Part shown: piece by piece, positions 52,448-59,027 of the stretch | How positions within the stretch are numbered: the first letter of the stretch is position 1 | Layout: every line of letters starts with the position of its first letter | NCBI RefSeq assembly: GCF_007829035.1 | Contig: NZ_VIVQ01000001.1 | Location: 1,240,001 to 1,304,000 of the forward strand | Source of the DNA: Rudaeicoccus suwonensis | GTDB lineage: Bacteria > Actinomycetota > Actinomycetes > Actinomycetales > Dermatophilaceae | Direction of reading: 5' to 3' | Length of the DNA: 64,000 nt | The notes under the pieces: generated by a model | Databases searched by the model: none | What the model was told of the DNA's origin: nothing | What the model saw: the letters and a program-made list of their open reading frames with translations, nothing else | Program-made: the position numbers and the translations under genes

Positions 52448-52686
52448 TTTGGAGAACGTGCACAGGTGGCGCCGCTGGCGCCTGGGCCGGGCTCGGGCGC
52501 CGCCGGAGCACCGGACCACGAGTGCGACGAGATGTCGATCGCGGCCGCGCGAGCTGCGAGGTCTGCGACGACCAGCGTTCACCCACTGGTCGGCTCGATG
52601 CTGTCTCGCGGATGCCGTGCCGTCGAACCGGAGCAGTCGACTGGTGCTCGCGTACGACGACGATCGACGAACGGGATGAGTGTCAG

Positions 52687-53751
52687 ATGCCAACGACGGC
52701 CACGAGACAGCGACGCGACATCGCCTCGACTTTTTCGATCGGCGGTCCGCCGATGGTCGTGGGCCACCGCGGCGCCAGTGGGTACCGTCCGGAGCACACT
52801 CTCGCGTCATACGAGCTCGCGGCGCGGCTGGGCGCGGACTCGCTCGAACCGGATCTGGTGTCGACCGGCGATCACGTGCTGGTCTGCGCGCACGACTTGG
52901 AGATGTCGGCGACGACGGATGTTGCGCAGCGGCCGGAGTTCGCTGCACGTCGCACGACGCGGCGTGTTGCCGGGCAGGAGAAGTCCGGCTGGTTCTACAG
53001 CGACTTCTCGCTCGCGGAGGTCAAGACGCTGTGGGTGCGCGAGCGTTATGCCGACCTGCGGCAGTCGAACACGATCTACGAACGCCGTTTTCGCATCACG
53101 ACCTTCGAGGAACTGTTGCGACTGCGCGCTCGGCTGTCCGACGAACTCGGACGCACGGTGGGACTCAGCGTCGAGCTGAAGGATCCGGCCCACCACCGTT
53201 CGATCGGGCTGCCGTTGGAGGAACCGATGCTGGCCGCACTGCGTGCTGCGGGTGTCGACCGGGTCGGCGGTCCGGTCTTCGTGATGACCTTCGAGCCGAC
53301 AGCGCTGATCCGGTTGCGGGCGGACTTGGGAATGCAGGCGCCGTCGGTGCTGCTGGCCGCGACGGGCGAGGTGCCGGTGGATCTGCGCGGGGGCGCGGAC
53401 GAGCCGACGTATGACGAACTGCTCACCCCGACGTCCTTGCGCCGACTCGCGACCTGGATCACGGCCGTCGGGCCTGAGAAGGACATGGTGATCCCGCGAC
53501 GTGGTGATGGTTCGCTGGGTGGCCCGACCGACTTGGTGCGCCACGCCCACGAGGCGGGTCTGCGGGTGCACGTGTGGACCTTCCGTGCCGAGAACGCCTT
53601 CCTGCCGACGAACTTCCGCTCCAGCGACCGAGCCGGCGACTACGGCGACGTGCTGGGGGAGATGACGACGTTCGTGCGGGCCGGCATCGACGCGTTGATC
53701 AGCGACCACGCCGACCTTGCGGTGCTCGCGCGGGCCGAAGTCTTCGCCTGA
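52687..53751 (+). CDS. Glycerophosphodiester phosphodiesterase
   Basis: This 354-residue enzyme hydrolyses glycerophosphodiesters to glycerol-3-phosphate and an alcohol. The catalytic motif VVGHRGASGYRPEHTLASYE has both key His/Arg and Glu residues. LEPDLVSTGDHVLVCAHD supplies the metal-binding Glu-Asp and the second histidine. VELKDPAHHRS, VFVMTFEP and VHVWTFRAENAFLP follow the GlpQ pattern, including the long insertion of the GlpQ-type branch. No signal peptide is seen, so it is probably cytoplasmic. ATG 52687 is the nearest start to the domain. Confidence 0.9.
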   Translation: MPTTATRQRRDIASTFSIGGPPMVVGHRGASGYRPEHTLASYELAARLGADSLEPDLVSTGDHVLVCAHDLEMSATTDVAQRPEFAARRTTRRVAGQEKSGWFYSDFSLAEVKTLWVRERYADLRQSNTIYERRFRITTFEELLRLRARLSDELGRTVGLSVELKDPAHHRSIGLPLEEPMLAALRAAGVDRVGGPVFVMTFEPTALIRLRADLGMQAPSVLLAATGEVPVDLRGGADEPTYDELLTPTSLRRLATWITAVGPEKDMVIPRRGDGSLGGPTDLVRHAHEAGLRVHVWTFRAENAFLPTNFRSSDRAGDYGDVLGEMTTFVRAGIDALISDHADLAVLARAEVFA

Positions 53752-53832: not shown

Positions 53833-53952
53833 CTACTTTCCGCCGCGCATGCGGTGGACGACCTCGTCCAGGAAGTCGTCCACCTCACGCGGGTCGTAAC
53901 CTCGGCGTCCTCCGGACCCGAATTCGGTCCGGACGACGTCATCCGGCGTCAT
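53833..53952 (-). CDS. Miniature DivIVA-domain protein (39 residues)
   Basis: This ORF lies three bases after the aceE stop on the same strand. It begins MTPDDVVRTEFGSGGRR and has the DivIVA domain signature GYDPREVDDFLDEV, then ends HRMRGGK. DivIVA domains are the N-terminal membrane-curvature and dimerisation modules of polar-growth and septum proteins (Wag31/DivIVA, SepIVA-like); here only that module exists, without a coiled-coil tail. Stop TAG 53833. The in-frame signature, the start position just behind aceE and the clean stop support a real gene. Its function is unknown. A short CCACG-TGCT-CGTGG hairpin follows at 53819-53832. Confidence 0.75.
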   Translation of the reverse strand: MTPDDVVRTEFGSGGRRGYDPREVDDFLDEVVHRMRGGK

Positions 53953-53955
53953 GGG

Positions 53956-56718
<2,763 letters not shown>

Positions 56719-56857: not shown

Positions 56858-57679
56858 TCACGGCAGGTTGAGCAGGGCGTGGCGGTTGACGTCCTTGTAG
56901 AGCAGGTAGCGGAATCTCCCGGGCCCACCCGCGTAACACGCCTGCGGGCAGAACGCGCGCAACCACATGAAGTCACCCGCCTGCACCTCGACCCAGTCAC
57001 GGTTGAGCAGGTAAACCGCCTTGCCCTCCAGGACGTACAGACCGTGTTCCATGACGTGCGTCTCCGGGAACGGTATGGCGCCGCCGGGTTCGAAGTTGAC
57101 GATGTTGACGTGCATGTCGTGCCGTATGTCGGTGGGGTCGGCGAAGCGCTGGGTGGTCCAGGCGCCATCCGTGCCGGGCATCTCGCCACCCACGACCTCG
57201 CTGTCGTGGGTCACGAAAGCCGGCGGCGCGTCGATGCCCTCGACGACCTCGTAGCGCTTGCGGATCCAGTGGAAGGTCGCCGTCGCGTCGCTGTCGTTGT
57301 GCAGTGTCCACTGTGCCGCCGGCGGGACGAAGACGTAACTGCCCGCAGTCAGCGCGTGAGCGTTGCCGTCCAGTGTCAGACGCAACTCGCCCTCGACGAC
57401 GAACAGCACGCCCTCGGCCGCCGGGTTGAGCTCGGGACGGTCGCTGCCACCGCCGGGGGACACCTCGACGATGTACTGCGAGAAGGTCTCGCTGAAACCC
57501 GTGAGCGGCCGCGCGATGACCCACAGCCGGGTGTTGTCCCAGAACGGCAGCAGGCTGGTCACGATGTCGGTCATGGTCCCGCGCGGCAGCACGGCATACG
57601 CCTCGGTGAACACGGCACGGTCGGTGGTGAGCTGTGTCTGCGGCGGCAGGCCACCGGCCGGGGTTGCGTAGGAGGTCAT
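56858..57679 (-). CDS. allE: (S)-ureidoglycine aminohydrolase (bicupin)
   Basis: This 273-residue bicupin would convert (S)-ureidoglycine to (S)-ureidoglycolate and ammonia. The N-terminal cupin has LLPFWDNTRLWVIARPLTGF and EGVLFVVEGELRLTLDGNAH. The C-terminal metal cupin has HDMHVNIVNFEPGGAIPFPE, THVMEHGLYVLEGKAVYLLN and FMWLRAFCPQACYAGGPG. These are AllE/UGlyAH signatures. It is the last gene of the allantoin operon, one base after allB. The 139 bases after it, up to aceE, contain the aceE promoter region and no other gene. Confidence 0.92.
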   Translation of the reverse strand: MTSYATPAGGLPPQTQLTTDRAVFTEAYAVLPRGTMTDIVTSLLPFWDNTRLWVIARPLTGFSETFSQYIVEVSPGGGSDRPELNPAAEGVLFVVEGELRLTLDGNAHALTAGSYVFVPPAAQWTLHNDSDATATFHWIRKRYEVVEGIDAPPAFVTHDSEVVGGEMPGTDGAWTTQRFADPTDIRHDMHVNIVNFEPGGAIPFPETHVMEHGLYVLEGKAVYLLNRDWVEVQAGDFMWLRAFCPQACYAGGPGRFRYLLYKDVNRHALLNLP

Positions 57680-57680
57680 G

Positions 57681-59027
57681 TCAGGAGCCTTTCGTCAGCA
57701 GGGTGCCGTGCGGGTCGTCCAGGATCGTGACCTGACGGCCGCGCAGCCAGACGCGCCGGGCATCGCCGTCGAGGGTCAGGTCCTGGTATGCCGTGAGCTT
57801 GTTCTTGTGCTCGAGCGTCGCGGCGTCGATGAGGTGGTGATGGTCGGGCGCGAAGGCGATCAGGTCGGCGGCTGCGCCGACGGCGATGCGGCCTTTGTCG
57901 GTCAGGCCGACCAGGTCGGCAGGGGCGGTGCTCATCCACCGGACGACATCGGTCAATGCGAAACCGCGTGACCGTGCCTCGGTCCAGACCGCCGACAGTG
58001 CCAGTTGCACGCTGGCGACCCCACCCCAGGCCTGACCGAAATCGCCGCTCTGCAACTGCTTGAGGTGGACGGTGCAGGGGGAGTGGTCGCTGACGACCAG
58101 GTCGATCGTGCCGTCGGCGAGCGCATCCCACAGCTGAGTTCGGTTGGCATCACTACGGATCGGCGGACAGCACTTGTGCGCGGTCGAGCCGTCGCGGATG
58201 GTTTCGGCGGTGAAGGTCAGGTAGTGCGGGCAGGTCTCCACCGTGAGCGGAAGGCCGGCGGCCTTCGCAGCCCGTATGGCGGGCAGCGCTTTCGCGGAGG
58301 ACAGGTGCAGGATGTGCGCCCGCCCGCCCGTCTCGCGCATCGCGGCGATCACCGACTCGATCGCGGTGACCTCGCTCTCGTCGGGTCGGGACGCCACGAA
58401 GTCGGCATACTTCGGCCCGGCAGCCGGTGGTGCCGAGTCCAGTGCGGCGGCATCCTCGGCGTGGACGATGAGCAGCGCGTCGAGTTCGGCGCAGCGGGCG
58501 AGGTAGGTTCGCAGCTCCTCGCGAGACAGGGGCGGAAACTCCGGCACACCCGAGTCGACAAGAAAGCACTTGAAGCCGAAAACGCCTGCGGTGTCGAGCT
58601 TTTCGAGTTCCTCGAGATTGCCGGGGACGGCGCCTCCCCAGAAGCCGACGTCGACGAACGCCTGAGGTGCCGCCGACGCCCGCTTGATCTGCAGGCCCTC
58701 GAGCGTTGTGGTGGGCGGCAGGCTGTTGAGCGGCATGTCGATGATCGTCGTGGTGCCACCGCGCAGGGCGGCTCTGGTGGCGGTCGTGAAGCCCTCCCAG
58801 TCGGTGCGCCCCGGCTCGTTGACGTGCACATGGCTGTCGACCATTCCCGGCAACAGCACCTCGTCGGCAGCCAGGTCGACGCTCGAGGTCGCCGTCCAGC
58901 CGGTTGTGTCGCCGCCGAGACTGATCGCCGCGATCACACCGCTGTGTATGCCGATCGTCGCGGGCTGCTCGACGCCGTCGACGACAGCGCGCGCTGCGCG
59001 GACGACCAGATCGAAGTGGTGGGTCAT
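57681..59027 (-). CDS. allB: Allantoinase
   Basis: This 448-residue amidohydrolase opens the hydantoin ring of allantoin to allantoate. LLPGMVDSHVHVNEPGRTDW has the HxH metal motif. VFGFKCFLVDSG has the lysine that is carbamylated. Further metal ligands are in IVHAEDAAAL, HILHLSSAKALP and VVSDHSPCTVHLK. Length and motifs are normal for bacterial AllB. ATG 59027 overlaps the glycerate kinase stop by four bases; allE follows one base after its stop. Confidence 0.95.
   Translation of the reverse strand: MTHHFDLVVRAARAVVDGVEQPATIGIHSGVIAAISLGGDTTGWTATSSVDLAADEVLLPGMVDSHVHVNEPGRTDWEGFTTATRAALRGGTTTIIDMPLNSLPPTTTLEGLQIKRASAAPQAFVDVGFWGGAVPGNLEELEKLDTAGVFGFKCFLVDSGVPEFPPLSREELRTYLARCAELDALLIVHAEDAAALDSAPPAAGPKYADFVASRPDESEVTAIESVIAAMRETGGRAHILHLSSAKALPAIRAAKAAGLPLTVETCPHYLTFTAETIRDGSTAHKCCPPIRSDANRTQLWDALADGTIDLVVSDHSPCTVHLKQLQSGDFGQAWGGVASVQLALSAVWTEARSRGFALTDVVRWMSTAPADLVGLTDKGRIAVGAAADLIAFAPDHHHLIDAATLEHKNKLTAYQDLTLDGDARRVWLRGRQVTILDDPHGTLLTKGS

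Follow-up and report, generated by a model that had tools for sequence, protein, structure and literature searches.

A DivIVA-motif mini-ORF lies directly behind aceE

The window, a 64,000-nt stretch of the Rudaeicoccus suwonensis genome, carries an unusual and rare DivIVA-motif mini-ORF that belongs to a patchy set of aceE-linked ORFs in the family. We consider the chances about even that this is a true gene for a minimal DivIVA motif, co-expressed with aceE and probably shortened from a longer ancestor. The ORF occupies positions 53833–53952 on the minus strand and translates to 39 residues, MTPDDVVRTEFGSGGRRGYDPREVDDFLDEVVHRMRGGK*, which comprise one N-terminal motif and a short tail ending in GGK. 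The preceding gene, aceE (53956–56718, minus strand), encodes a 920-aa pyruvate dehydrogenase E1 of the homodimeric type (TIGR00759, 1385 bits). It ends at 53956; between its TGA and the ATG of the small ORF lie exactly three bases (CCC), and the two ORFs share the same frame. A first-pass annotation had described a 39-residue ORF three bases behind aceE, and both the sequence and the translation bear this out.

This ATG is the earliest possible start, since the codon that precedes CCC in the same frame is the stop of aceE. A GGAG within the last aceE codons (53964–53967, minus strand, read from the sequence), 11 nt before the ATG, is a possible Shine-Dalgarno sequence; it is weak evidence as such, since its codons belong to the conserved AceE tail GNAGGD. 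The G+C contents at the three codon positions of the small ORF are 77, 44, and 79%, with the third-position value (79%) set against 89% in aceE, and this composition is compatible with coding. The annotation also held the ORF to be too short for most gene callers, which is doubtful, as its 120 nt exceed the 90-nt minimum gene length of Prodigal.

A glycerophosphodiester phosphodiesterase gene (52522–53751, plus strand; PF03009, E = 1.7e-35) converges on this locus, and a comparison of flanks found the same gene convergent behind aceE in relatives both with and without the DivIVA ORF. No consensus terminator was found behind the small ORF, and the folding of the following 96 nt was not above that of shuffled sequences (z = 0.63). 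Genes for (S)-ureidoglycine aminohydrolase and allantoinase (56858–59027, minus strand) immediately precede aceE and share its strand; a ureide catabolism pair thus adjoins the pyruvate dehydrogenase gene in the window.

The ORF matches the entire TIGR03544 (DivIVA domain) model, with residues 1–35 aligned to model positions 1–34 of 34 (49.3 bits, cut-off 22, E = 2.7e-13), and positions 1–34 of 131 of the Pfam DivIVA model PF05103 (31.5 bits, gathering threshold 28, E = 1.9e-7). These E-values rule out a chance ORF. Judged by the profiles, the small ORF is homologous to DivIVA, with the N-terminal motif alone present. Because it stops after the motif, the earlier description of a bare DivIVA module without coiled coil is supported. 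Against TIGR03544, the small ORF scored 47.6 bits and the full-length DivIVA of the same genome 44.8 bits.

That full-length DivIVA (contig C1, about 2.22 Mb) is a 373-aa frame, and the genome also encodes a DivIVA repeat protein (C1, about 95 kb; 228-aa frame) and a small membrane protein with one DivIVA motif (C3:165812; 118-aa frame). A recent copy of the genome's own divIVA was rejected as the source of the small ORF: this best own-genome match reaches 61% identity across a 36-residue alignment, and where the residues agree, about one codon in three differs silently. The membrane protein (L007), of about 100 aa, has likely homologues at L241–L243, L245, L254, L260, L262, L265, and L268, and such proteins of several related genomes likely form a separate DivIVA-motif family.

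Occurrence of aceE-linked DivIVA-motif ORFs

A search of 149 family genomes, among them a single representative of the window genome's genus, found AceE in 146. About 130 of the 3′ flanks were read and screened with the DivIVA profile, all filters off. A DivIVA-motif ORF was present behind aceE in four of them, each from a different genus: the window genome, G076, G023, and G009. In G076, which is identical in sequence to Luteipulveratus sp. YIM 133296 (L172), the ORF is 83 aa long, contains two motifs, and overlaps the aceE stop as ATGA. The G023 ORF (L061:4236–5264) overlaps it as TGATG and encodes a 343-aa protein that joins two motifs to a class I SAM methyltransferase; a literature search brought up no such architecture. 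In G009, aceE is followed by a hairpin and then by a 138-residue two-motif protein. The tight placement behind aceE pointed out earlier therefore has counterparts of the same kind in two other genera (G076 and G023). Other DivIVA-motif frames of the family are much longer than the small ORF (88 aa or more among the matches listed).

None of the nearest relatives by AceE (G026, G122, G080, G047, and others) has a DivIVA ORF behind aceE. G026 and G122, whose AceE is 90% identical, have a different sequence between aceE and the phosphodiesterase gene. In these two genomes of the sister genus (L042 and L043), a palindromic repeat-like GGTCTCGATACG...GGTGGTCGAGTAG fills this gap. Conservation in relatives, which the first-pass annotation had proposed as a check, was thus only partly found: it fails in the nearest relatives, and longer aceE-linked ORFs occur in three genera.

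An aceE partner conserved across the order was rejected: among 65 loci taken from an aceE search of the whole order, including a few from the family, none carried the ORF. Junction pattern searches, which require GNAGG-type codons of the AceE tail and leave lineages with other tails outside their reach, returned only Luteipulveratus sp. (L172) and a chance match (L171, a universal-stress-protein-like frame) from 84,980 species genomes, and only the window genome (G000), G023, and G076 from 186 family genomes; wide occurrence was rejected on these results. The conservation of the aceE-linked DivIVA ORF is patchy and rare. A tree of the 30 nearest AceE sequences scatters the four carriers over four positions, and at each of them the close sisters have no such ORF. 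This placement leaves two histories: many losses of an aceE-linked gene present in the ancestor, or repeated arrival of the motif.

Deletion history and neutral drift

The two-motif ORF of G076 is followed by GFEPYEGERTYTGAGTIFTAS*, which matches the methyltransferase C-terminus of G101 (EPYDGERTFTGAGTVFVAS), G039, and G023. In G101 and G039 the methyltransferase stands alone behind aceE, and in G023 it is fused to the two DivIVA motifs. The C-terminal scrap indicates that the bare ORF of G076 arose by deletion of most of the methyltransferase; as read from these sequences, it is most simply the remainder. Two genomes of the same genus as G076 keep an intact methyltransferase without DivIVA at the same place (L051 being the G076 flank). 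Methyltransferase homologues located elsewhere in five genomes (G018, G096, G058, G087, and G009) have no DivIVA motif, which ties the motif pair to the aceE position. By analogy, the single-motif ORF of the window is probably a further reduced form of a longer aceE-linked gene. Neither a second motif nor a methyltransferase remnant was seen behind it. Against a profile built from G076 and G023, the window ORF scored 32.9 bits and ordinary DivIVA 25–34.5 bits; with G009 added, it scored 43.8 bits and most DivIVA 44–48 bits. On these scores, the window motif is no clearly nearer to the other aceE-linked motifs than ordinary DivIVA N-termini are, and common descent with those motifs is a candidate relation.

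At fourfold-degenerate aceE sites, 38% differ from the sister genus, with 61% expected at saturation, which we converted to a divergence of roughly 0.6 substitutions per site between the genera and 0.3 on the window lineage. In simulations of neutral drift that ignored indels and started from the present sequence, the frame and eight key residues were kept in 0.1% of 1000 runs at 0.3 substitutions per site, in 10% at 0.1, and in 32% at 0.05. Such rapid loss implies that the ORF was constrained most of the time, was gained recently, or lost its function only recently.

A minimal gene and its alternatives

Most likely the small ORF is still a gene, and the main rival is a relic. The complete, high-scoring motif argues for a gene, as do the ORFs adjacent to the aceE stop in three genera, with a fourth shortly downstream, the deletion seen in G076, the drift simulations, the predicted helix-loop-helix, and the septal localisation of the Wag31 N-terminal domain. 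Against it stand the nearest relatives, which lack the ORF, the missing second motif or methyltransferase, a third-codon G+C below that of aceE, profile scores no clearer toward the aceE-linked motifs, the incomplete loop tip described below, and the greater length of the Wag31 domain studied in another species. The relic reading, in which the ORF is what remains of the 5′ end of a longer DivIVA-motif gene, was recently inactivated and yields no useful product, is in our judgment unlikely, though a serious contender. It draws on the longer homologues that other genera have in this position, the deletion traced in G076, the loss of everything in the sister genera, and the length of the other DivIVA-motif frames among the family matches listed. 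However, the frame and all key residues are intact, the TIGR03544 score is above that of the genome's own DivIVA, and drift would erase the motif fast, so the inactivation must be recent. A distinctly improbable alternative is that the motif came to lie behind aceE by a separate duplication or transfer, and is expressed there with no functional link to pyruvate dehydrogenase. The four scattered occurrences with ORF-less sisters and the ordinary type of the window motif are consistent with such a capture, but an ancestral gene with later losses accounts more readily for its recurrence at one position in one genus group, set against its absence from all 65 order-wide flanks, and the genome itself offers no close donor (next best match 61% identity).

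If the small ORF is such a minimal gene, ribosomes that end aceE at its TGA would restart at the ATG three bases on, and its connection with the pyruvate dehydrogenase complex would consist in co-expression. That the ORF continues the aceE frame, with a C after the TGA, would also allow occasional readthrough into an AceE-DivIVA fusion; we give this next to no credence, as the DivIVA ORFs of G076 and G023 are in another frame with their own overlapping starts and a fusion was therefore not kept. The gene would have originated from a longer aceE-linked DivIVA-motif gene, like those of Luteipulveratus sp. and G023, that was cut by deletion. Its predicted product is two helices, the first of them short, joined by a glycine/arginine loop; this corresponds to the DivIVA/GpsB tip module and lacks the coiled coil through which full DivIVA polymerises. 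A single-sequence AF2 model placed helices at residues 3–11 and 21–36 around a glycine-rich loop (mean pLDDT 73), and helix-loop-helix is the layout expected of the DivIVA/GpsB tip. Sequence matches were found to solved GpsB, Wag31, and DivIVA chains. The loop keeps two arginines and lacks the hydrophobic residue before them, which in relatives is the F of FRRGYD; the peptide may therefore bind membranes weakly.

In Corynebacterium glutamicum, the isolated Wag31 N-terminal domain, which at about 60 residues is longer than the 39-aa ORF, suffices for septal localisation even with its membrane tip mutated, and the authors ascribed this to protein contacts (PMC12393619). A motif-only peptide could likewise compete for or bind such partners. 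If translated, the product would most likely serve, should it have a role, as an LBD-like, partner-binding peptide, with DivIVA or its partners as targets at the septum and pole. The first-pass annotation had suggested localisation of the complex or a regulatory microprotein, both of which are candidate roles. It is very unlikely that the aceE-coupled peptide, by binding DivIVA or its partners, positions or tunes the actinobacterial pyruvate/2-oxoglutarate dehydrogenase complex at the septum and poles; were this so, a metabolic-enzyme operon would carry its own polarity tag. A rival reading, in which the peptide ties the complex to DivIVA at the pole or septum, is extremely unlikely. The position behind aceE would ensure co-expression, the N-terminal domain of DivIVA acts as a hub for protein binding (PMC12393619), and AceE and its partners are found at the poles and mid-cell in C. 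glutamicum (PMC10581250). However, the same study, which does not mention DivIVA or Wag31, explains this distribution by nucleoid exclusion (PMC10581250), most relatives lack the ORF, and no AceE-binding feature is visible in the 39 residues. Given nucleoid exclusion and the patchy occurrence, a targeting role is possible, neither needed nor backed by conservation.

A literature search found no motif-only DivIVA proteins and no paper linking DivIVA to aceE. If translated, the small ORF would be the smallest natural version of the DivIVA domain seen in this analysis, and would put to the test whether the tip module can function with no coiled coil attached. Taken as a series, the aceE-linked forms (two motifs with methyltransferase, two motifs, one, none) resemble a DivIVA gene that was fused and trimmed in place. 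The small ORF could also serve as a simple genetic handle on the cause of the polar position of the pyruvate dehydrogenase complex in actinobacteria.

Comparison with known DivIVA-domain proteins

The small ORF shares with the N-terminal lipid-binding domain of DivIVA/Wag31 the complete 34-position motif (TPDDV..EF....RRGYD..EVDDFLDEV) and the predicted helix-loop-helix. It differs in its length of 39 aa, in having neither coiled coil nor C-terminal domain, in its loop without the hydrophobic tip residue, and in its place directly behind aceE; its score against the full-length DivIVA/Wag31 model NF050102 is 18.7 bits, compared with 260. GpsB (NF010725) likewise has the N-terminal motif in common with it (phmmer E = 0.0027 to the solved chain 4ug1), but the small ORF lacks both the dimeric coiled coil and the C-terminal domain of GpsB (model 111 aa); it scored 27.9 bits (cut-off 91) over model positions 8–39 of 111. 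Proteins of the DivIVA domain repeat type (TIGR03543) resemble it in using motifs some 35 residues long with no extended coiled coil, but carry several in tandem where the small ORF has one (15.4 bits, cut-off 154.2). Closest in setting are Luteipulveratus sp. YIM 133296 and G023, in which, as in the window, a DivIVA-motif ORF starts at the aceE stop; their ORFs have two motifs, in 83 aa or in 343 aa with the methyltransferase, whereas the window ORF has one, and orthology is a candidate relation.
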